Source of the DNA: Candidatus Poribacteria bacterium
Lineage (GTDB): Bacteria; Poribacteria; WGA-4E; WGA-3G
Reading direction: 5' to 3'
DNA: 33,824 nt
Assembly: GCA_021295715.1 (NCBI GenBank)
Contig: JAGWBV010000027.1
Coordinates: 1-33,824, forward strand
Below are positions 5,653-31,281 of the stretch, piece by piece. How positions within the stretch are numbered: the stretch's first letter is position 1; the number at the start of each line of letters is the position of its first letter. The notes below the pieces were generated by a model. It was given only the letters and a program-made list of their open reading frames with translations, searched no databases and was not told the DNA's origin. The position numbers and the translations under genes are program-made.

Positions 5653-5681
5653 TTGACATCTTCATAGGCTTTGATTATACT
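5653..5681 (+). promoter_or_regulatory. Sigma70-type promoter for the M14 peptidase gene
   Basis: TTGACA (5653-5658), 17-bp spacer, TATACT (5676-5681). Initiation near 5688 would exclude the most upstream in-frame start at 5671 and favour 5764. Confidence 0.72.
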
Positions 5682-5763
5682 TAAACGACTCAATCCGTTG
5701 AGGATAGCGTGTTTAGAAGAAAAGCAAACGAACCCGCACATGTCTATAAAAAGGGAACCGCTC

Positions 5764-8505
5764 ATGAAAAACTCTGGATTCTTTTCCGCCAATTTCTTAC
5801 CTCCGTTTTATCAAGAATCGGGGTTACAAGCCCCGCCCACAATGGATTCCCAGAAAACTGATACCATACCTCTGTGGCGCATACACAGTGTATTGGTAAT
5901 AATAATATGCGTTGCGCTGCTACAGAAACCCGTCCATGCGCAACTGATGTCGCCTGAAGAGGCACTCGGATTCCAAGTCGGTTCCGATTATCAGGTCGCA
6001 GGATGGCAAACAGTTTCCGATTATATGCGACATGTGGCAGCGAATTCAGATCGGGTCCTGTTGGAAAAACTCGGAAAAACGACAGAGAACAACGATCTTC
6101 TGATGCTGTTGATTTCCGCACCAGAGAACTTAGAGAATTTGGCACACCATCAGCAAATTCAAAGGCGGCTCGCGCTGCCCAGTGTCCCCATAAATGAAGA
6201 CAGCGCGGCAGAATTGGCCGCGCTTGCGGCAGAAGGTAAAGCGGTGGTGCTGATTAATTGTAATTTGCATTCCACAGAGATCGCCTCTTCACAGATGTCG
6301 ATGGAACTGGCGCACCAATTCGCAACCACCGAGGCACCACAAATCAAAGAGATTCTTGAGAATGTGATAATTCTGCTCATCCCCTCGGCGAATCCGGACG
6401 GTTTGAACATCGTAGTGGATTGGTATAATCACACCGTCGGCACCCCTTATGAAGGATCGGAAATCCCGTGGTTGTATCACAAATATACGGGGCACGATAA
6501 CAATCGCGATTGGTTTATGTTGACACAGATAGAGACGCAGATATTGACGCAGGTGCTTTATGAGGAGTGGTTCCCAGAGGTTGTCTACGATGTGCATGAG
6601 ATGAGTTATCGCGGACCGCGGTTCGTGATACCACCGTATTTTGAGCCGGTCAACCCGAACATTCCACCACTGTTACAACGGACGCTTTCGCTTATCGGTG
6701 CCCAACTCGCTTTCGATTTGACGAGCGACGGGTTTACGGGTGTACTTTCGAGTGCTGTTTACGACACATGGTGGCACGGCGGGTTTCGGACGGTGCCGTA
6801 TCGCCACAACATGGTAGGTATTTTGACGGAAGCGGCGCGCGTGGAGATAGCGACCCCAATTTTCCAACCCCATCACACTTTAAAAGGCTACCGACGCGGG
6901 CTTGATAAATATACACTCCGCACAAACTTTCCTGAACCGTGGCCCGGAGGTTGGTGGCGACTGCGAAACATCGTAGAATATGAGAAAGCCGCGGCATTGT
7001 CAATTCTCTCCTTCGCCGCGGAGCATCGGGTAACGCTGAAAACAAACTTTTACAAGATGGGACTCAACGCCATAGCAAAAGGGAAAGATGAACCGCCACG
7101 TGCGTTCCTGATCCCAGCCCAACAACGCGACATCCACACAACGCTCAAAATGTTGGATATTTTACGACGCGGCGGGGTGGAGATTCATCAAGCAAACGCG
7201 CCGTTTATCGCTGACGGCGTAGAATATCCCACCGACACCTATGTTGTTTCAATGTCCCAACCGTTTCGAGCACACGCGAAGGATCTACTCGAGGTGCAAC
7301 GCTATCCGGAACGCCGTCTTTCGCCAGAATCACCGCCCGAACGTCCTTACGATATAGCGGGTTGGACACTGCCCTTACAGATGGGAGTGAGAACAATCGC
7401 TGTGGTGCATCCCTTTGAGGCAGATTTAACGAAACTTTCAACACTATCACAAGTGGAAGGCACGTTAGAGGGTGCCTCTGAACCGACCGGTTATCTATTT
7501 GAGAATCGAACGAACATTGAAGGGATTGTTCTCAATCGTCTGTTTAAAGCGAGACTGGCAGATAGCAGTCCGAGATACACACTCTATTCAGCACAACGGG
7601 ACATAGAACTCGCTGGTAAAACATTTCCACGCGGATCTATCCTGATTAGAACGGCAAAACCGCCACTACAAGAGATCGAGGAGATACGAGCCCTCGCATC
7701 GGAATTCGGTATCCATATCCACGCCGATGCGTCTATCGACGAAAACACGGTCAGCCAAAAATTCTTAAGAGTAAACGCCCCGCGCCTCGGTTTGTATAAA
7801 CCGTGGACAGCAAACATGGATGAAGGTTGGACGCGCTGGGTTTTGGACACACACGAGTTCGATTACAGCAACCTTACGAATGCGGAAATGCGGGCCGGGG
7901 ATTTGGCGGCGCGCTATGATGCTATCATTTTGCCGGATTTCGGTGCTTCCGGTATCCTTAACGGGCATTCAACAGGGAAACTGCCGCCGGAGTATGTCGG
8001 TGGAATCGGCACGGAAGGATTGGCGAATTTACGAGCGTTCGTGGAGGATGGCGGCACGCTTATCTGCTTGAATCGTGCGTCAGAACTCCCTTTAAAATAC
8101 TTCGGGCTTGGTGAGAAAGGCATTGTGAACGTGGTCGAGAAAGAGAATCAACCGAAAGAAAATGCGTTTTTCTGTCCCGGCTCATTGCTACGGGTTCGCA
8201 TAGACACGAAGCATCCTATTGGACATGGGATGGACGCAGAGATGGCTATCTTCTTTAAATCGGGACCGGTCTTTGAAGCAGGACGCGGTGGCGGAAACGT
8301 TGTAGCGACATATCCTGAGTTCAATCCTTTAATGAGCGGTTGGCTCGAAGGCGAGAAACGGATTCGTCAGAAAGCAGCACTTCTGGAAGTCCCTTTGGGC
8401 GATGGGCACGTGATTCTTTTCGGTTTCAAACCCCAACACCGAGGACAATCTCAGGGGACCTTTAAACTGCTTTTCAATGCGATTTTTTACAGCGCACAAA
8501 ACTGA
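5764..8505 (+). CDS. Secreted M14-family zinc carboxypeptidase
   Basis: A 913-aa protein from the ATG at 5764, which follows AAGGGAA by 8 bp. A later ATG at 5842 would give a more compact signal peptide and is a real alternative. A hydrophobic export segment (residues 37-60, VLVIIICVALL...VHA-Q) precedes the peptidase domain. Zinc ligands are visible as HSTE (H169, E172) and DVHE (H278), with the substrate-binding NNRD (R248) and the likely catalytic Glu in ILTEAA (E356). This is the M14 carboxypeptidase set. A long C-terminal half follows; its last 200 residues (YDAIILPDFG, then LRAFVEDGGTLICL, then a final strand near GHVILFGF) look like a class-I glutamine amidotransferase-type fold without its cysteine. 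It is probably a periplasmic or secreted peptide-degrading enzyme. Confidence 0.87.
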   Translation: MKNSGFFSANFLPPFYQESGLQAPPTMDSQKTDTIPLWRIHSVLVIIICVALLQKPVHAQLMSPEEALGFQVGSDYQVAGWQTVSDYMRHVAANSDRVLLEKLGKTTENNDLLMLLISAPENLENLAHHQQIQRRLALPSVPINEDSAAELAALAAEGKAVVLINCNLHSTEIASSQMSMELAHQFATTEAPQIKEILENVIILLIPSANPDGLNIVVDWYNHTVGTPYEGSEIPWLYHKYTGHDNNRDWFMLTQIETQILTQVLYEEWFPEVVYDVHEMSYRGPRFVIPPYFEPVNPNIPPLLQRTLSLIGAQLAFDLTSDGFTGVLSSAVYDTWWHGGFRTVPYRHNMVGILTEAARVEIATPIFQPHHTLKGYRRGLDKYTLRTNFPEPWPGGWWRLRNIVEYEKAAALSILSFAAEHRVTLKTNFYKMGLNAIAKGKDEPPRAFLIPAQQRDIHTTLKMLDILRRGGVEIHQANAPFIADGVEYPTDTYVVSMSQPFRAHAKDLLEVQRYPERRLSPESPPERPYDIAGWTLPLQMGVRTIAVVHPFEADLTKLSTLSQVEGTLEGASEPTGYLFENRTNIEGIVLNRLFKARLADSSPRYTLYSAQRDIELAGKTFPRGSILIRTAKPPLQEIEEIRALASEFGIHIHADASIDENTVSQKFLRVNAPRLGLYKPWTANMDEGWTRWVLDTHEFDYSNLTNAEMRAGDLAARYDAIILPDFGASGILNGHSTGKLPPEYVGGIGTEGLANLRAFVEDGGTLICLNRASELPLKYFGLGEKGIVNVVEKENQPKENAFFCPGSLLRVRIDTKHPIGHGMDAEMAIFFKSGPVFEAGRGGGNVVATYPEFNPLMSGWLEGEKRIRQKAALLEVPLGDGHVILFGFKPQHRGQSQGTFKLLFNAIFYSAQN

Positions 8506-21409: not shown

Positions 21410-24400
21410 GTGCAGATACATTTTTTGTCGAAATTGGTAAACCAGTTAACCTTAAAAAAGCAAAACCTGTTGTTAAAAACTGGGATCATTTTTATAATTG
21501 CCCTCTGTTCAACGTCGGAAGTTGTCGTCAGTCGTATTGCCGAAGAAGAGACTGAACCCAAAAAGCAAACCCAAACAACTCCCGCAACATCTGACACTCG
21601 CGCTACCGCTCCTGATTCCGACACACGCGAAACACCACCCGAAAATCAACGCTATACTGGATTTGGACTATTCAACCGCGACCGCTTCGACCCTGATAGC
21701 GAATCAAAGCACTTCATTTGGCAAAGTGGCGATCAGCAATCAGCAGTCAGCAGTCAGCAAGGCTGGTGGGAGACACACACGACGCAAGAGGATACCACAG
21801 AATCTACCGAAGACCAAGAACCGATAACCGATAGCGATCGCCTCATACAACCCTACCTCGACAGTCTCCGACGCTGGCGGTATCCTCCTCGTTTAACCGA
21901 TCTCAATAAACTCTATGACTGGAAACCAAGACCGAAGCGCGATGAAAAAGGCATTGCTCTCCCGATGGATTCCAATCTTAGGATAACAGGCTTACAATCT
22001 GTAACCGTAGAGGCGAACAAAACCCACTATTTCGGTGAAGGCGATCTGAACCGATATGGCGGTTATGGTTATGGCGGCGGATACGGTGGATACTCATCAG
22101 GACTTGACTTAGGACTCACTTCGTCTTATGGTTACGAAGATTTCGGCTACAGCAGCGGCGGCTTTGGCGGTGGATACGGTTCAGGATATGGAAGTAGTTA
22201 CAGCAGTTATGGCTCAAGTTACGGTTCCAGCTACGGCGGATATAGCGGCGGATACGGCAGTGGCGGTGCCCCACGCGCAAGCGGGTTCAACTTACGTCAA
22301 ATACAGCAATTTGGGCTACACGGTCGCGTGGGACAACGGACGCATATCGCTGTGGACTACAGTGCTGGTGGTAGTGGTTTCGGGGGCGGTGGATATGGCG
22401 GCGGCTATGGCGGCGGATACGGTGGGGGATACGGCGGTGGATATGGTATCGGTGGCACAAAAGAACAGAAGATTAAAGTCTGGTACGAAGGCACACCGGA
22501 AAGTATTATAAAAACCATCTCCTTCGGCGACATCACACTCAGTTTGCCGAACACCCGCTTTCTGAACATCAACCGGAATTTGTTCGGACTTGAAGGCGTT
22601 TTTGAATGGAAAAACACGCGTCTTACGGCATTCGGTTCTCGCAGTAAGGGGATACGCGAGGTGCGGACTTTTCGTGGACAGTCGCGGCGCGCTGGCGGCG
22701 GATACGGTTATGGACCGCGCGGGATTCAGATACCGGACACGAACTACGTTAAAAATCGGTTCTACCACATCCAAAAAGGTGAAGATGGCGAACTACACGA
22801 CGCATATCTCCCCATCAAATCAGGGAGCGAGCAAATTTTCATTGACGATGGCGTCGTAGGAAACAACCAAGGCGGTCAACGAACGAGTCGAGGCTACTTC
22901 AATCCCCAATTCTCCGGTCAGGACTATAATATTGACTACGAAACCGGTGAAATTGAATTCCTATCTCCGATTTCTGCAAATTATACCATCGTCGTCTCGT
23001 ATGAATATTTAGGCGGAGACGGCGGCCTCGTCGGTAAATCTGAAGTCTTTGTTGATGAAAATGGAGATGGAACCCTTGACGAAGAGGGTGAAGAAATCGG
23101 CTACGTCGTGCTAAAAGAGAAGGGGTTTCGCGGCACAGAGGCAACACACGTCTATAGCCTTGGCAACCGCAACATCAATCCACGAGATTTCACACTCCTA
23201 ATCCTCCGACAAGGACAAAGCGAAACCTTCCAGACAAGCGCAGGCACTGTTCCCTATATCGCAACTTTTGGGTTGGATCAAAACAGTGACGGTATTGTAG
23301 ATGCCCAGTTTATAGACTATGACAGAGGCTTACTCCGTTTCCCAACGACAAATCCGTTTCAAATCGTAGACCCAGCCCATCCATATTACGAGTATCGCGA
23401 TTCACTCAACAACACCGCCATCTATCTCGAAAGTGTCCGAACAGATGCTCAAGTCTACACCATCATCGCGGATTACGCGTATCAATCAGAAACGTATAAC
23501 GTAGGCTTGTTTGTGATTCCAAACAGCGAGACGGTCCGATTGAACGGACAGCTTCTGACTCGTGATACTGACTATATGATGCTTTATGAGGTCGGCACGA
23601 TCCGATTCTTCAGGCAATTGGACGAGTTCGATGAGATCGTTGTGGAATTTGAAAAAACACCTTTTGGCGGTTCATCACAGCAAACCGTAGCCGGTGTCTG
23701 GTTAGAGTATACACATAAACAGAAACCCAAGTCTGACAGAGAACAGAGCCTTGAGGACAGATTCAATCGGTTAGGGGGTCTCCAAAGAATGGATTCAGAT
23801 ATGCTTGGTGAAGGAACGGATGCCTTCGGTTCGGGTTTGTCAGGTGGACTTCAACGCAGGGGTGGGGGTTTCGGTAGCAGTTCTCGCCTCGGCAGAAGCG
23901 GTTTCGGGGGTGGATTCGGAGGCGGTTATGGCGGCGGCTATGGCGGCGGTTACAGCAGCTTAGGAGGTCGATCACGAAGTTCCTACGGTAATTATGGCGG
24001 CGCGATGAACTATTTCAACCCCGTTTTTCAAAAAGGATTTTCGCTCTCAACGGGTTATATTCTGAACACCGGACAAAGACCCGCGGAAATACCAGATGTG
24101 AATAGCGTTCCAAACCGCTTGCAAGCGTTCAATGTGAATACGAGTTTTGGACGGGAGTTTAACGTTGCGGGTGTTTTAAATCTGTTGCCCTTTATTAACG
24201 TGAGAAACCTGCCACTCTCAGTTGACTTCAGCGGAGAAGCGGCTTACTCACACAACAACCCGAATAGTATCGGCGTCGCGCTCATTGATAGCATGGAAGG
24301 GGCAAAGGAATCAACAACCGTCCCGACGTTAAAATACAATTGGAAACCGAGCAGCGTCCCATACGTATCGGAGAATGCGTCAATACCCGCTGGAGATCCC

Positions 24401-27400
24401 GATTACCGTGTTATACCGACCGACGAGAATAGAGCTATCTTCAACGTTGTGCTGAAAGACAAAAACGAAACGGAAGCCATAGGCAACTATATGCGGAACC
24501 GCGATGTGCCAGCCTCGTCAATCCAACCGCTCTCTCTCTCGACCGAAGAACGCCTCATTATGGAACTCGGCTACAATTTCACAGACGTTATCGCCGAGTG
24601 GGGCGGTTTTTCAAACGGTCTCTCCGCATCCGGCGTAGATTATTCGGAACGTAGCTTCGTTGAAATCTGGATGCGCGTCCAAGGCGACGACAATGTAACA
24701 CTACACCTGAACCTCGGAGTGGTGAACGAAGATACAGATGCCGATGAACGATTGGATAGCGAAGATATCCCAGAAACGCTAACAGATACGAATGGAGACG
24801 GAAGCATTGATGCATTGGATTTAGACCTCGAGAATCTTTCAGAAATTGATCGCTATCGTGGGAACGGTGCGCTTGATACAGGGGAAGATATCGGATGGGG
24901 ACTCAGCGGTCCGCTTGAAAGAACATCTATCGGTGTAGGCAACCAGATTCTGGACAGCGAAGATCTCAATGGAGACGGTGTCCTTGACAGTATAGATGCG
25001 TATTTTGAGGTGGCGATACCACTGAATGAGATTCCGAAAGAATGGGTCAAAAGCAAAAATGCGAACGGTTGGATGTTCCTCAGTATTCCACTCTCTAAAT
25101 TTAAGCCAGCAGGTTCCCGTCTGCCGAGTCTCGTTTTTGTGCAACACTTCCGATTCTGGTTAAGCAAAAACGCTCCGGGTAACGTAGAAGGTTTATTACA
25201 ATGGGCGGATATCGAAATCGTTGGCAACAAATGGAAGCAGGGGATTATCACTCGGTCAAGTTCGCAGCCTGCTATCGACCCCACCACGGGCGAATCCATA
25301 ACGAACAATCCAGCATTCGGCGCCACCGGAGAAACCTTGTCAACGAGTACAATTGTGGAAGACACATTGGAAAAATTTATCGTTGGCACGAGGGATAACT
25401 TCAGTTATGACGCGTATCAAAGTGCATATCTGGATATCGAAGATAATGAACTTTTCAAAAAATTACATCCATTCACAGCCACTTCACTCGGTTTTCAAAC
25501 ACAACAACAACGTGAACAGACACTCAGCCTTGATTATTATCTCTTTCCCGGCTCTTACGGTGTCACCTCAAAGCAATTGAAAGGCTTAACACAAAGCGAA
25601 GGGCAAGATTTCAGCAAACACGATACACTCCGCTTTTGGCTTTATGGTGACAAAAGCGATACAACCTTCGTTTTACAACTCGCGCCAACCGTCCGAACCG
25701 GCTATCGCAGTTCCTTCTATAGTTCAGACCCGTTTGTCAATCAGACAGAACAGGAATCAGACATTAACGTTTTCGAGAATCTAACAGACTACTATGAATA
25801 TACAGTCCCGATTGACTTTGAGGGTTGGAAGTTAATTGAAATTGATTTACGGGACCGCCACAGAAATGACTATCCCGATGTTGATAGCGATCCACAGGAT
25901 AGCAGTCAGCAAGAAACTGTCCCTTCACCAGAAACCCTCCTAACTGACAGCCAACAGCCGGCAGCCGATAGCCAACAGCCCGATGGACAGCCTGATGGTT
26001 TCACAATTCGAGGGAAGAACAGCACGCGGCTTTCTATCAAAAATATCGGTGGTATCCTCTTGGGTATACGTAACGACACTGGACGTGAAATCAGCGGAGA
26101 AATCTGGATAAATGAGATTCACCTCGGCGATCCGCTCGTGCGTGCCGGATGGGCGCGTCGGGGCAATATGGCGATGTCCCTCGGTAGAATCGTTAAATTA
26201 CGCGGCGGTTACGCAAGCCAAGACAAAGATTTTGAAAGTAGCGCGGGGGAAGTCGGTAGACAACGACTCTCTTCACGCGGATATAGCACAACAAACAACG
26301 ACTTCAATATAGATGCAGATGTCACGCTATTCCCATGGCTGCCCATCCGATACGGAATCCGACACCAAGACACGGAAACCGAGAGCCAGCGCGGCAGCTA
26401 CAGCAGCTTCCAGAGCGGGAAAAGTGAAATCCGTACCCGAGATATTTCTGTGCAGTTCATTCAAAACCCGTATCCGAATCTCGGCTTTGCTTACAACTAC
26501 CAAGACTTTTGGAACGAACGTCAAGGCACACAAATTAGCCACCTTTATACGGGTAGTTTTCGGTATGAACTCGGTTCAAAACTTGGGGTCAACGCGCAGT
26601 ATCGGCACGAAGACATACTCGCCAAACCCGAAACCGCAACGGAAACATCTTCGACCTCAACATCCTACTATAGTTACGGCTACGGTAGAAATCGAGATGA
26701 AAAAACGGATAGCGGCACCATAACATTTAATATCAGTCCGACGAGTATCTTCAGCCTGAACCCGAGCTACGATGTTCGCCGGACGCTTGAAAGGCGGGAA
26801 GATCCAAACACCAGCACCACACTTACGGGTAATATAACGACTTCGGGGTTGGAAACTCCTCCGACAACCGCCGAATCCGAAGAAGAAACACCAGCCGAAG
26901 ATGTTAAATGGTCAATTGCTCAGCGAGAACACCGGTTGTCGCTGACACCACGCTTAAACCGGGATCTGATCGGTATGCGTCCCACTGTAACAAGCCGTAT
27001 GAGTTTTCGTGAGAACTGGTTCCGTGAACAGAAAAACGCTTCACTCAATGGCAACATCAGTTTCGGCGTGAACCTCCGCGTTCAAAAATGGTTCGGATGG
27101 TTCCTCAAAGAAGGGAAGGGAGGAACGGAAGAAGGCGAGGATGGAGTGCCCAACCTTCCAAACTCCCAACCTTCCACGCCAGAAGCGGATGGAGGAACGG
27201 AAGAAGGGGAGGACGGGGTGCCCAACCTTCCAAACTCCCAACCTTCCACGCCAGAAGGGACTGATGACTACAGTGAACAACTCAGGGAAAATGGTATCGA
27301 CGAAACGCAGATCCAAGAATTAGAAGAGAATTCTTCGACTTGGATTGAACGGGATAAAGGAGCAGTCAGGCATCAGCAGTCAGCAGTCAGTAAGAATAGC

Positions 27401-28267
27401 AGTCAGCCAACGGTTTCGGACAGCCAACACAAGGACGGTATCCTGCAGCGAATTTTGAAAAGTTTCACTGTTAACACCAATGCAAACTTCACCGCTACTG
27501 AATCGTATCGGCAACTTGCCTCTGGACTCTCAATGTTAGAAATCTATTCGCTCGCGGACGATGCAAAGGAACGGACGAACTCCCGGCGCAGCAATCGTTA
27601 CACCGTCCGGAGCTCGGTAGACCCATGGAATTGGGCATCCTTGGGAACAAACGTCAGCACTTCCGACAGCTTCCGAAAAAGCTCAGGTACAACCTACGTA
27701 CAGAACACCAATGCCTATGAAGCCGACGTAAAACTGAAAGCGCGGGAGACCTCCAGTTTCCAACTCCGCTATAGTTATACAACGCGAAATAACGGGACGC
27801 TGGACAATATACTCGGTGACAGTAAAGCCCATATCCCTTCACTGAGTTGGATACAGACATGGGGCAAAGAGACCCGGACAGCATTGGGTGTCCGAACTAC
27901 GATTCGGGACCAACTCCGGAGCGGTATTAGAAGCAACGCGCTCATCGTTACGCCAAACCTGAGTATCGAATACAGATACCATACAGAAAATGGGATATGG
28001 ATCCCGTTTTTCGGTAGAATCCCTCTGAAACACGATCTCGATCTCACCAATACCCTCTCTTGGGCTATCCGAAGAGAGCAATACGGGGCGAACCTTGAAG
28101 AGCGTTCAGAAAGGTATGAGACGACCTTGCGCGTCGGCTACAAAGTTAGTACCCATATTACAGCGAATTTCCATCTCGGCCTTAGCTACAACCACGATAG
28201 GGTTGAAGAAGGTAGAGACTTCCTCTCCATTGCGACCGCCCTCACCGTCCGCGGCGAAATCCAATAG
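21410..28267 (+). CDS. SprA-like giant outer-membrane/cell-surface protein with Gly/Tyr-rich insertions
   Basis: A 2285-aa protein starting at GTG 21410 (CAGGG upstream). An N-terminal signal-like segment (KKQNLLLKTGIIFIIALCS) is followed by a low-complexity acidic stretch and a long beta-rich body. Features recalled from SprA, the type IX secretion translocon, appear in order: DYNIDYETGEIEFLSP (about 505) and a similar DYMMLYEVGTIRFF (about 723); LIDSMEGAKES (about 960, SprA: DDFEGA); LHLNLGVVNEDTDADERLD (about 1098, SprA: NLGNISEDI); INEIHLGDP (about 1566, SprA: NELRL); and a C-terminal run of alternating strands. Calcium-binding-type DxNxDG loops occur near 1130 and 1187. Gly/Tyr-rich blocks and in-frame repeats interrupt it. 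No PorV, plug or other T9SS gene is nearby, so the role is inferred; another large beta-barrel protein is the alternative. Confidence 0.78.
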   Translation: MQIHFLSKLVNQLTLKKQNLLLKTGIIFIIALCSTSEVVVSRIAEEETEPKKQTQTTPATSDTRATAPDSDTRETPPENQRYTGFGLFNRDRFDPDSESKHFIWQSGDQQSAVSSQQGWWETHTTQEDTTESTEDQEPITDSDRLIQPYLDSLRRWRYPPRLTDLNKLYDWKPRPKRDEKGIALPMDSNLRITGLQSVTVEANKTHYFGEGDLNRYGGYGYGGGYGGYSSGLDLGLTSSYGYEDFGYSSGGFGGGYGSGYGSSYSSYGSSYGSSYGGYSGGYGSGGAPRASGFNLRQIQQFGLHGRVGQRTHIAVDYSAGGSGFGGGGYGGGYGGGYGGGYGGGYGIGGTKEQKIKVWYEGTPESIIKTISFGDITLSLPNTRFLNINRNLFGLEGVFEWKNTRLTAFGSRSKGIREVRTFRGQSRRAGGGYGYGPRGIQIPDTNYVKNRFYHIQKGEDGELHDAYLPIKSGSEQIFIDDGVVGNNQGGQRTSRGYFNPQFSGQDYNIDYETGEIEFLSPISANYTIVVSYEYLGGDGGLVGKSEVFVDENGDGTLDEEGEEIGYVVLKEKGFRGTEATHVYSLGNRNINPRDFTLLILRQGQSETFQTSAGTVPYIATFGLDQNSDGIVDAQFIDYDRGLLRFPTTNPFQIVDPAHPYYEYRDSLNNTAIYLESVRTDAQVYTIIADYAYQSETYNVGLFVIPNSETVRLNGQLLTRDTDYMMLYEVGTIRFFRQLDEFDEIVVEFEKTPFGGSSQQTVAGVWLEYTHKQKPKSDREQSLEDRFNRLGGLQRMDSDMLGEGTDAFGSGLSGGLQRRGGGFGSSSRLGRSGFGGGFGGGYGGGYGGGYSSLGGRSRSSYGNYGGAMNYFNPVFQKGFSLSTGYILNTGQRPAEIPDVNSVPNRLQAFNVNTSFGREFNVAGVLNLLPFINVRNLPLSVDFSGEAAYSHNNPNSIGVALIDSMEGAKESTTVPTLKYNWKPSSVPYVSENASIPAGDPDYRVIPTDENRAIFNVVLKDKNETEAIGNYMRNRDVPASSIQPLSLSTEERLIMELGYNFTDVIAEWGGFSNGLSASGVDYSERSFVEIWMRVQGDDNVTLHLNLGVVNEDTDADERLDSEDIPETLTDTNGDGSIDALDLDLENLSEIDRYRGNGALDTGEDIGWGLSGPLERTSIGVGNQILDSEDLNGDGVLDSIDAYFEVAIPLNEIPKEWVKSKNANGWMFLSIPLSKFKPAGSRLPSLVFVQHFRFWLSKNAPGNVEGLLQWADIEIVGNKWKQGIITRSSSQPAIDPTTGESITNNPAFGATGETLSTSTIVEDTLEKFIVGTRDNFSYDAYQSAYLDIEDNELFKKLHPFTATSLGFQTQQQREQTLSLDYYLFPGSYGVTSKQLKGLTQSEGQDFSKHDTLRFWLYGDKSDTTFVLQLAPTVRTGYRSSFYSSDPFVNQTEQESDINVFENLTDYYEYTVPIDFEGWKLIEIDLRDRHRNDYPDVDSDPQDSSQQETVPSPETLLTDSQQPAADSQQPDGQPDGFTIRGKNSTRLSIKNIGGILLGIRNDTGREISGEIWINEIHLGDPLVRAGWARRGNMAMSLGRIVKLRGGYASQDKDFESSAGEVGRQRLSSRGYSTTNNDFNIDADVTLFPWLPIRYGIRHQDTETESQRGSYSSFQSGKSEIRTRDISVQFIQNPYPNLGFAYNYQDFWNERQGTQISHLYTGSFRYELGSKLGVNAQYRHEDILAKPETATETSSTSTSYYSYGYGRNRDEKTDSGTITFNISPTSIFSLNPSYDVRRTLERREDPNTSTTLTGNITTSGLETPPTTAESEEETPAEDVKWSIAQREHRLSLTPRLNRDLIGMRPTVTSRMSFRENWFREQKNASLNGNISFGVNLRVQKWFGWFLKEGKGGTEEGEDGVPNLPNSQPSTPEADGGTEEGEDGVPNLPNSQPSTPEGTDDYSEQLRENGIDETQIQELEENSSTWIERDKGAVRHQQSAVSKNSSQPTVSDSQHKDGILQRILKSFTVNTNANFTATESYRQLASGLSMLEIYSLADDAKERTNSRRSNRYTVRSSVDPWNWASLGTNVSTSDSFRKSSGTTYVQNTNAYEADVKLKARETSSFQLRYSYTTRNNGTLDNILGDSKAHIPSLSWIQTWGKETRTALGVRTTIRDQLRSGIRSNALIVTPNLSIEYRYHTENGIWIPFFGRIPLKHDLDLTNTLSWAIRREQYGANLEERSERYETTLRVGYKVSTHITANFHLGLSYNHDRVEEGRDFLSIATALTVRGEIQ
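21730..21757 (+). repeat. In-frame heptamer repeat, SprA-like gene site 1
   Basis: CGATCAG, CAATCAG, CAGTCAG, CAGTCAG: four 7-bp units read as part of DQQSAVSSQQ near residue 110. It is the same family as the intergenic runs, on the opposite strand sense. Confidence 0.65.
22057..22455 (+). repeat. Gly/Tyr-rich coding repeats, block 1
   Basis: Residues about 216-349 of the SprA-like protein are dominated by GGYG, GSSYGSSY and (GGGY)n units. Between 22390 and 22452 five 12-bp units encode GYGG with varied synonymous codons (TAT/TAC, GGA/GGC/GGT), so the amino-acid pattern is conserved more than the DNA. Confidence 0.75.
23901..23960 (+). repeat. Gly/Tyr/Phe-rich coding repeats, block 2
   Basis: A second block encodes FGGGFGGGYGGGYGGGYSSL at about residues 831-850 of the SprA-like protein, 1.5 kb after block 1 and with the same unit design. 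Confidence 0.72.
25944..25978 (+). repeat. In-frame heptamer repeat, SprA-like gene site 2
   Basis: CTGACAG, CCAACAG, CCGGCAG, CCGATAG, CCAACAG: five units read as TDSQQPAADSQQP, in a hydrophilic linker before the INEIHLGDP segment. Confidence 0.65.
27119..27262 (+). repeat. 72-bp tandem duplication in the SprA-like gene
   Basis: Two 72-bp units (27119-27190 and 27191-27262) each encode GGTEEGEDGVPNLPNSQPST plus four more residues. They differ at only a few bases, so the duplication is recent. Each unit contains CCAACCTTCCAAACTCCCAA, itself an imperfect direct repeat of CCAACCTTCCA. Confidence 0.8.
27362..27405 (+). repeat. In-frame heptamer repeat, SprA-like gene site 3
   Basis: GCAGTCA, GGCATCA, GCAGTCA, GCAGTCA (27362-27389), a short break, then GCAGTCA (27399-27405). 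It is read as SVRHQQSAVSKNSSQ-type polar sequence about 100 bp after the 72-bp duplication. Confidence 0.6.
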
Positions 28268-28495: not shown

Positions 28496-30190
28496 ATGAC
28501 AGGAAACCACAATACAGATATACCCCGCCCAGAGTACCCGCGTCCAGATTTTCAACGCGGAACATCCGAAGGTATCGACTGGATCTGTCTAAATGGGACA
28601 TGGGAATTCGCTTTTGACCCTGACGATACCGGCGAACAAAATCAATGGTTTGATCCGAAGCCAACCGCTGAGTCCCCATGGACATTGCAAATACAGGTCC
28701 CTTACCCCTGGGAAAGCCTTGCGGCATGGGGCGACGAAGAACAAGCAGATAACGCAACCTATTTAAGTAAAAACGCCTATATCACCCCTGAAGAAGTCAC
28801 CTGTGGTGGTTTAGAACGTGGTGGAAATTATCGGGACCAACCGAGGCATACAATCGGGTGGTATCGCAAACCGGTCTCTATCCCTGAGAATTGGGGAAAT
28901 AAACGCGTTATTCTGAAATTCGGTGCCGTTGATTGGGAAACGACCGTCTGGGTGAACGGTAAAATGGTCGGTAAGCATGAAAACGGGTACCTGCCGTTCG
29001 AATTTGACATCACAGACGCACTTACACCCGGGGAACCCGCACGTATCGTCGTTCGGGCTTACGACGCACAGGACCACGGCGAGCAACTCGCGGGCAAGCA
29101 GATAGGTTGGTATGAACGCACCAGTGGTATCTGGCAATCTGTCTACTTAGAACCGAGAAACGAAACATACATCGCGCAGTGCCACATAACACCTGACATT
29201 GACAACGCCTCCGCCACGTTTGCTGTTAAGATAAATGGAAACTTAAAAAATACAGAACGCAAGTTGCGTTGGAATTGCGACGAACTGGGGGGGACAGTTG
29301 AAGTCTCTGGAGAGAATGATACGCAATGGACCATCAATATCCCGCCAGACCAACTCCACCTCTGGGACGTAGACACGCCACACCTCTATCATGTAACGCT
29401 TGAATTGCTGGAGGAAAGTGCTTCTAAAACCGAACAAGATCCAAACACTGCGCAACCTAACCAGAAACCTGCCCGTAATGTAATGGAGGGCAGCCCAGGG
29501 GACCATAATTTAAAAATTGATAGGATTTTTACCTACTTCGGTATGCGCAAGGTTTCCATTGCGAAAGCACCGGGTGGAGATTACCAGTATATCTACCTCA
29601 ACAACCGCCCTATCTATCTGCTGGGTGCGCTCAATCAGTCGTTTAATCCGGAAGGCGTGTATACATTCTTGACAGATGAAGCGATTCGCAGAGATGTCGA
29701 ACGCGCAAAAGAATTCGGATTCAACTTCCTCCGTCTCCACATCAAGGTAGATGAACCGCGTCTCTACTATTGGGCTGACAAGTTGGGTTTGCTTTTTATG
29801 TGCGACATCCCGAATTTCGGCGATTATACGGAGAAAGCGAAGGCACGATTTGTGCAAACGCTTCGCGGAAACATTGCGCGTGACTACAATCACCCTTCGA
29901 TCATTTCATGGTGTAATTTCAACGAAACTTGGGGACTCGGCGGCAGAGAGTATAAAGAGATGCACGAACGGCAAGAATGGGTGCGCGAGATGTATCACCT
30001 CGCCAAATCTCTTGATACCACCCGCCTGTTTGTACGACCATGTAGAGACAGACATCAACTCGTGGCATTTCTACATCAACGATTACGAACAAGCGAAAGA
30101 ACATATCGCCAACGTTGTGGAAGAAACATATCCGGGTTCAACGTTCAATTATGCCGGTGGCAATGTCCAGAGCGATGCGCCGTTGATTAA
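28496..30190 (+). CDS. GH2 5' open frame: sugar-binding, Ig-like and partial TIM-barrel domains
   Basis: A 564-aa open frame of the broken GH2 gene. Residues about 30-215 are the jelly-roll sugar-binding domain (ICLNGTWEFAFDP, IGWYRKPVSIP, DWETTVWVNGKMVGKHENGYLPFEFDIT, GIWQSVYLE). About 215-350 is the Ig-like domain. From about 350 the barrel begins (FGMRKVSI, NNRPIYLLGALNQSFNPEG, FGFNFLRLHIKV) and reaches the acid/base E477 in WCNFNETWG. The last 50 residues (VRPCRDRHQ onward) are out-of-frame and foreign to the family. AAAGGAAAAAC precedes the ATG. No signal peptide is seen. Confidence 0.75.
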   Translation: MTGNHNTDIPRPEYPRPDFQRGTSEGIDWICLNGTWEFAFDPDDTGEQNQWFDPKPTAESPWTLQIQVPYPWESLAAWGDEEQADNATYLSKNAYITPEEVTCGGLERGGNYRDQPRHTIGWYRKPVSIPENWGNKRVILKFGAVDWETTVWVNGKMVGKHENGYLPFEFDITDALTPGEPARIVVRAYDAQDHGEQLAGKQIGWYERTSGIWQSVYLEPRNETYIAQCHITPDIDNASATFAVKINGNLKNTERKLRWNCDELGGTVEVSGENDTQWTINIPPDQLHLWDVDTPHLYHVTLELLEESASKTEQDPNTAQPNQKPARNVMEGSPGDHNLKIDRIFTYFGMRKVSIAKAPGGDYQYIYLNNRPIYLLGALNQSFNPEGVYTFLTDEAIRRDVERAKEFGFNFLRLHIKVDEPRLYYWADKLGLLFMCDIPNFGDYTEKAKARFVQTLRGNIARDYNHPSIISWCNFNETWGLGGREYKEMHERQEWVREMYHLAKSLDTTRLFVRPCRDRHQLVAFLHQRLRTSERTYRQRCGRNISGFNVQLCRWQCPERCAVD

Positions 30191-30288
30191 TAGCGAATAC
30201 GGGGGTATCTCAGCAGGGGCGGGGGACAAGGACATCTCATGGTGTTTCAAATACCTTACCAACGAACTCCGTCTCCATCCGAAAATTT

Positions 30289-31281
30289 GTGGTTACACAC
30301 AACGGTTTTATGAAATACGACCGGTCGGTGAAGGCATTCGGATACGACTATCTCGATATTAACGCCTTAGATTTTATCGCTATTGATTATCCACCTGGGA
30401 CAACAGTTACACCGGGTGAGAAGATAAAGGCTGACATCTACGCGAGCCATTTCTCGCACAAAACCATCACAGACACGACACTCCACTGGCAATTGGATAC
30501 AATGTCAGCGACGGGAGACATTACACGTGGATGCGTTTCAGGAAGCGTTGATATTCCATTTCCGCAGTATCAAGTGCAAAATGTGCACCGACTTGAACTC
30601 ACCATGCCTGATGTCCACGCCGCGGTCGGCACACTCCACGTCTGGGTAACAGATAGCACCGGTTCTGTTGTCGCCCGCAATTTCATCAACTTTGAGCATG
30701 TGGGAGAGGATTGTATCCCCGAAGTCCCTGTAGGAGGGGTTTCTAACCCCGAATTTCGAAACGATTCAGGGGTAGTGAGTATAAACTATGTCCCTGGAGA
30801 CGTGTCCAAATCGTCCTGGGATGAACCCATAAATGAAGAACACCTGTTTTCCGCAGAGGGAAGTGGTTACGTTGAATATGAGATTTCGTTGATAGAAGGA
30901 ATCGGTACAACAAATCCCGCGGAGATGGAATTGATTTTTGAAGCCTCCAGCGCAAACGGTGGTGCGCGTCAAACGGAACCTAAAAAATATCCATCTGACG
31001 TGACGATCTCTGTCAACGGCGTTGAAATCGAGACGATCCGCATACCCGACTGTCCTGCGGATGCGCGCGGTGTGCTTTCTTACATCCATGGGCAACCCGG
31101 CACCTACGGTTACCTTTATAGAGTTAAGGTAGATCCGTCCGTTGTTTTTGAGAACGAGGCAGATACATTAACAGTCCGATATGAAGTGAAAGCAGATGCT
31201 GCGGCAAAAGGGGGGTTTGCCCTCTACGGTGCACGCATAGGTAGATACCCGACGGGTCCCCATCTGCGCATTCATCGTTAA
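30289..31281 (+). CDS. GH2 3' open frame: C-terminal beta domains
   Basis: A 330-aa open frame that continues the GH2 protein after the second break (HNGFMKYDRSVKAFGYDY onward). It comprises beta-sandwich domains typical of GH2 C-termini (IDYPPGTTVTPGEKIKADIYASHFS, LHVWVTDSTGSVVARNFINFEH) and a last jelly-roll-like part ending FALYGARIGRYPTG. Its apparent ATG or other start is internal to the original gene and has no ribosome-binding site, so independent translation is unlikely. Confidence 0.65.
   Translation: MVTHNGFMKYDRSVKAFGYDYLDINALDFIAIDYPPGTTVTPGEKIKADIYASHFSHKTITDTTLHWQLDTMSATGDITRGCVSGSVDIPFPQYQVQNVHRLELTMPDVHAAVGTLHVWVTDSTGSVVARNFINFEHVGEDCIPEVPVGGVSNPEFRNDSGVVSINYVPGDVSKSSWDEPINEEHLFSAEGSGYVEYEISLIEGIGTTNPAEMELIFEASSANGGARQTEPKKYPSDVTISVNGVEIETIRIPDCPADARGVLSYIHGQPGTYGYLYRVKVDPSVVFENEADTLTVRYEVKADAAAKGGFALYGARIGRYPTGPHLRIHR
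30736..30750 (+). repeat. Small palindrome GGGGTTTCTAACCCC inside the GH2 3' part
   Basis: A 6-bp-arm palindrome with flanking GTAGGA, read in frame as VGGVSNP between two beta domains. It looks like an intergenic REP-type unit captured in a linker. Confidence 0.45.

Follow-up and report, generated by a model that had tools for sequence, protein, structure and literature searches.

The SprA-like gene

The window, i.e. the whole 33,824-nucleotide stretch of Candidatus Poribacteria DNA that was analysed, contains an intact open reading frame of 2285 codons that opens with a GTG start. A preliminary description, made from the letters alone, had suggested that it encodes a protein of the SprA type, the outer-membrane channel of type IX secretion, on the basis of four sequence landmarks. 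The features of the gene are listed here.

21410..28267, + strand: sprA-like gene, 2285 aa, predicted outer-membrane translocon protein (TIGR04189 match, Foldseek match, presence in 40/40 Poribacteria genomes)
21410..21535, + strand: N-terminal signal-peptide-like segment (KKQNLLLKTGIIFIIALCSTSEVVVS), read from the translation
22010..22495, + strand: Gly/Tyr/Ser-rich blocks 1 and 2, residues 201-300 and 305-362 (two or more such blocks in each of 51 orthologues)
22463..22678, + strand: match to TIGR04189 positions 164-234 (genome profile search)
22916..23716, + strand: match to TIGR04189 positions 378-673, containing DYNIDYETGEIEF at 22922-22960 (profile search and motif scan)
23822..24028, + strand: Gly/Tyr/Ser-rich block 3, residues 805-873, between two SprA-matching stretches (profile search and block scan)
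24170..24445, + strand: match to TIGR04189 positions 722-815, containing DSMEGA at 24287-24304 (profile search and motif scan)
24710-24757, + strand: landmark NLGVVNEDTDADERLD (motif scan)
24938..26359, + strand: match to TIGR04189 positions 1083-1503, containing INEIHLGD at 26108-26131 and overlapped by a sub-threshold Pfam SprA_N match (profile search and motif scan)
26156..28255, + strand: about 24 long predicted β-strands of a C-terminal outer-membrane barrel, closing on a conserved last strand (AlphaFold model of the C-terminal half; conserved C-terminus)

All four landmarks are present and are mostly retained in the 51 orthologues, where looser versions of DYNIDYETGEIEF, DSMEGA, NLGVVNEDTDADERLD and INEIHLGD were found in 50, 34, 44 and 48 sequences, respectively. 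The NCBIfam model TIGR04189 (SprA/Sov) matched the protein in five stretches with an E-value of 1.3e-42 and 145.4 bits, which is significant though under the equivalog cut-off of 200 bits, and Pfam SprA_N gave a sub-threshold 21.6 bits against 27. The four stretches returned by the genome profile search are collinear and follow the order seen in SprA. Judged at the level of sequence, the similarity to SprA exceeds what is expected by chance. SprA was not found in a direct sequence search of the PDB using the protein and alignments of both halves, so the case for homology is built on the curated profile and the fold. The sub-cut-off scores probably explain why automatic annotation has missed SprA in Poribacteria.

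AlphaFold models were made of two halves of the protein, residues 145-1145 and 1140-2285, using 32-sequence alignments. The mean pLDDT was low in both cases (39.9 and 52.6, respectively), but many strands of the C-terminal half reached 70-90 despite the low mean for that model. Compared to a 36-strand barrel, the models provide the roughly 24 long strands of the C-terminal half and low-confidence strands in the N-terminal half, the two halves having been modelled separately. In Foldseek searches against the PDB, SprA chains (8GL8, 8GL6, 6H3I, 6H3J) came top for both halves, with best matches to 8GL8 for the C-terminal half (E=2.2e-8) and to 8GL6 for the N-terminal half (E=7.7e-11). The nearest non-SprA entry for the N-terminal half reached only E=0.08, whereas other barrels also matched the C-terminal half. 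TM-scores were low because the AlphaFold models are poor. The first rank of SprA for both predicted halves is independent, model-based support for SprA homology along the chain, and together with the profile match it upholds the assignment to the SprA type. The assignment thus withstood both refutation tests of the preliminary description, on the profile match and on the predicted structure.

Conservation across Poribacteria

When the sequence collection was scanned with the SprA-like protein, 57 loci came back, every one of them from a metagenome assembly of Candidatus Poribacteria; the full-length copies were 54-90% identical to the protein of the window. Each of the 40 Poribacteria genomes searched (10 genera) has the gene, at essentially one place per genome, with a best-stretch score of about 61-78 bits on the 2319-position TIGR04189 model. 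Weak extra matches to the profile at G001:C16:95673-95774, G025:C1:15382-15489, G028:C341:18287-18412 and G037:C205:3371-3475 fall in other proteins, most of them 1100-1300 aa long, and cover only a short motif (profile positions ~604-650). Identity across the phylum is 51-95% per half, with hundreds of invariant residues, and most full-length orthologues have a hydrophobic N-terminus.

The preliminary description had noted long Gly/Tyr-rich blocks as untypical of SprA, and these are real. Three of them, of about 60-100 residues each, distinguish the Poribacterial protein from SprA/Sov of Bacteroidota, and they lie at corresponding places in distant members of the family. Block 3, being flanked by SprA-matching stretches, behaves like a lineage-wide loop insertion. 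The blocks are a trait of the whole phylum rather than a mark of decay. Otherwise the protein resembles SprA/Sov (TIGR04189; 6H3I, 6H3J, 8GL6, 8GL8) in length, in the order of the matching stretches, in its many β-strands, in its fold match and in occupying essentially a single gene place; it differs in scoring below the curated cut-off and in its host phylum, Poribacteria.

The window held no recognisable type IX gene besides sprA, in line with the preliminary description, which saw none adjacent. The gene neighbourhood of sprA was considered as type IX context and set aside: it is shared chiefly by members of the same genus and has no relation to type IX secretion. Beside sprA, at 28496-31281 of the window, lies a glycoside hydrolase family 2 gene broken up among three reading frames. 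Its relatives have a single frame, one example being that of 944 aa at L004 17017-19851; the split gene is either decayed or a product of assembly errors. At two other loci (L009 16680-19982, L044 16677-18673) an AAA ATPase-like gene lies 47 bases after sprA, and the last ~40 sprA codons recur further downstream of it, as if a mobile cassette had landed at the sprA 3' end and had restored it. Locus L025 has the same kind of AAA ATPase-like gene, and a second copy of the sprA end was not detected there.

Cargo, shuttles and proteases elsewhere in the genomes

Sorting domains of the TIGR04183 family exceeded the cut-off in 40/40 Poribacteria genomes, with 27-82 per genome and 35 in the genome of the window. 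Among complete cargo reading frames that were read, this C-terminal domain (CTD) was at the extreme C-terminus in 15/15 and a signal-peptide-like N-terminus was seen in 14/15. The domain comprises about 85 aa of the FlgD-Ig/Por_Secre_tail type, with the typical pattern NPFNPETWIPY...VASG(I/V)YFY...LILK. The FlgD-Ig fold occurs also in flagellar FlgD; the Poribacterial FlgD-Ig domain is the last domain of predicted secreted proteins. Ten cargo bodies were scanned and gave LRR, WD40, LDL-receptor, cohesin/dockerin, Spondin_N and FG-GAP domains, which include eukaryote-like classes described earlier for Poribacteria. An M14 peptidase at 5671-8505, examined as a possible cargo protein, gave no CTD match.

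The PorV family was likewise over the cut-off in every one of the 40 genomes (11-24 per genome, 16 in the genome of the window), and C25 peptidase domains were present in all of them, at one to five each. The genome of the window encodes three PorU-like C25 proteases, all much longer than PorU, with intact His and Cys residues and a CTD at the end. On the PorU model NF033707 these score 364-403 bits (best 402.7) against a cut-off of 420. One of them aligned with PorU in the PDB (6ZA2) at E=4.4e-37 over both protease and CTD, and the GHG histidine and the SC(Y/L)NG-type cysteine line up. We take these two residues to be catalytic, as in gingipains and PorU. Nearly all PorU-like copies read have the GHG histidine and the later cysteine motif, one copy at L137 being without GHG.

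In the genome of the window (L125, contig C34), a C25-CTD gene is followed 105 bases on by a PorV-family gene. The same porU-porV pair is found at L126, L127, L136, L137, L139 and L140, in families f1, f2, f4, f5 and f6, although not at every C25 locus; the two genes adjoin in Porphyromonas gingivalis too. Compared to PorU and PorV of Bacteroidota (NF033707, NF033709, NF052325; 6ZA2), the Poribacterial proteins share the C25 His/Cys dyad, a CTD of their own and the PorV-family gene directly after. They differ in that the PorU-like copies are mostly ~1700-2200 aa, compared to 1156 aa for the 6ZA2 chain, and usually number two or three per genome, and in that the PorV family is expanded to about 16.

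A second PorV has a CTD-bearing protein of ~990 aa encoded directly upstream at 7/7 loci from three families. This 990-aa protein (L101 9891-12866 and its orthologues) has the sorting domain, no other known domain and very strong conservation. Neighbours of 947-1050 aa beside one PorV paralogue were considered as CTD proteins and had no CTD.

Overall, the type IX parts are dispersed in the genome, away from sprA, and the isolation from a type IX system implied by the preliminary description does not hold. The same description had raised the option of a surface protein that keeps only the barrel. We considered that the SprA-like protein may be such a surface or structural barrel whose export function has been lost, as could be argued from the extra Gly/Tyr blocks, from a sprA gene standing alone in the window and from a GldL/GldM motor that was not found (see below). 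Against this, the protein is conserved over its full length throughout the phylum, and it co-occurs universally with PorV-family, PorU-like and CTD proteins. The presence of these genes in the window's genome and throughout the 40 genomes searched makes a barrel-only protein unlikely, and we regard loss of export as highly improbable.

Motor and ring components

The GldK domain also occurs in widespread sulfatase-modifying enzymes, which would make a search for it uninformative. For GldL (TIGR03513), GldM (TIGR03517 and PF12081) and the ring protein GldN (TIGR03523), nothing credible was found in the 40 Poribacteria genomes, in searches run without a type IX-positive control; high divergence may account for this. 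The two GldM models and the one GldN model gave no credible match even at E<=1. Matches to GldL at E<=5 lay outside the N-terminal membrane region and were equally frequent in control genomes (10/14). A genome-wide search for type IX parts, as had been suggested, thus recovered PorV, PorU-like proteins and CTD cargo, but not GldL, GldM or GldN. The proposal of a 'reduced or divergent' export system stands as to divergence, and as to reduction only for the motor and ring. In this respect the detected set differs from systems with the GldKLMN/PorKLMN motor and ring.

A complete type IX system may be present whose GldKLMN proteins have diverged too far for the profiles. SprA itself gives low best-stretch scores on a long model, and shorter motor proteins that are equally diverged could escape detection, all the more as no positive-control genome accompanied the motor profiles. 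However, the PorV and PorU-like proteins were easily detected, GldM and GldN failed even at a permissive threshold, and the GldL noise was no rarer in the controls. We consider such hidden divergence possible, at somewhat worse than even odds.

The sole MotA/ExbB-family protein found in the genome of the window is the ExbB of an ExbBD operon, which encodes an outer-membrane lipoprotein of ~1100 aa, ExbB with a CarboxypepD_reg domain, and ExbD proteins. This gene order recurs in five genomes read, from four families (L162 6874-12668, L163 4477-10245, L164 4181-9802, L165 3640-9163, L166 7227-12960). The lipoprotein was considered as an equivalent of SprE and did not resemble any family or any solved structure. 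An ExbB/ExbD-type proton motor could drive export in place of GldLM, and this operon is the candidate, both for its unique ExbB and for its recurrent order. On the other hand, these genomes also carry TonB-dependent receptors, which ExbBD may simply energise; nothing in its position ties the operon to sprA, and its large lipoprotein resembles nothing known. A link between the operon and export is speculation, and we regard this substitution as unlikely.

Discussion

The most probable reading, at roughly 0.87, is that the 2285-aa protein serves as the outer-membrane translocon, of the SprA type, in a Poribacterial type IX-like secretion system. It draws on the homology of the SprA, PorV, PorU and CTD proteins, their universal co-occurrence, the porU-porV pair, the His and Cys residues of the protease, and the signal peptide and CTD of the cargo. 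Taken together, this indicates that a genuine type IX-like system for translocation and processing exists outside Bacteroidota, its energiser being either different or undetected.

Transport, shuttle docking, CTD cleavage and anchoring would proceed by analogy with Flavobacterium johnsoniae. Sec would carry signal-peptide cargo across the inner membrane, as in that organism. The ~85-aa CTD would then enter the SprA barrel from the periplasm and bind a PorV-family shuttle at the lateral opening, through which the shuttle-cargo complex would exit to the cell surface. There, a PorU-like C25 protease may remove or transfer the sorting domain, leaving the cargo surface-bound or released. In F. johnsoniae, loops of PorV bind the CTD of the cargo within the SprA pore and energy from GldLM pulls the PorV-cargo complex out, and type IX transport requires this motor (PMC10994853). 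Since loading is energy-free in the model system, another energiser could serve the translocon part. We therefore put forward, tentatively and at slightly under even odds, that the Poribacterial translocation and processing system never had the GldLM motor or has replaced it, with energy coming from elsewhere, possibly from an ExbBD-type complex.

The type IX system is usually described as specific to Bacteroidota. A 2024 review assigns it to the Fibrobacteres-Bacteroidetes-Chlorobi superphylum, with Poribacteria unmentioned (PMC11205867), and a 2026 paper presents its Flavobacterium as the first T9SS record in putative sponge symbionts (PMC13052501). A 2014 single-cell study of Poribacteria reported TIGR04183 domains on eukaryote-like proteins, did not find structural secretion genes, and stated that the secretion pathway 'remains to be revealed' (PMC3909097). 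Beyond that remark, we found no account of type IX genes of Poribacteria in open-licence papers. The present data likely supply the pathway for these tagged proteins, namely a channel, shuttles and sortase-like proteases, all of them encoded in each genome examined.

The undetected motor lets one ask which part of type IX transport needs GldLM. If the motor was indeed never present or has been replaced, type IX secretion would consist of a portable translocon module and an exchangeable energiser. The proposed pathway would give sponge symbionts a means of presenting LRR, WD40, cohesin and LDL-receptor-type proteins to the host.
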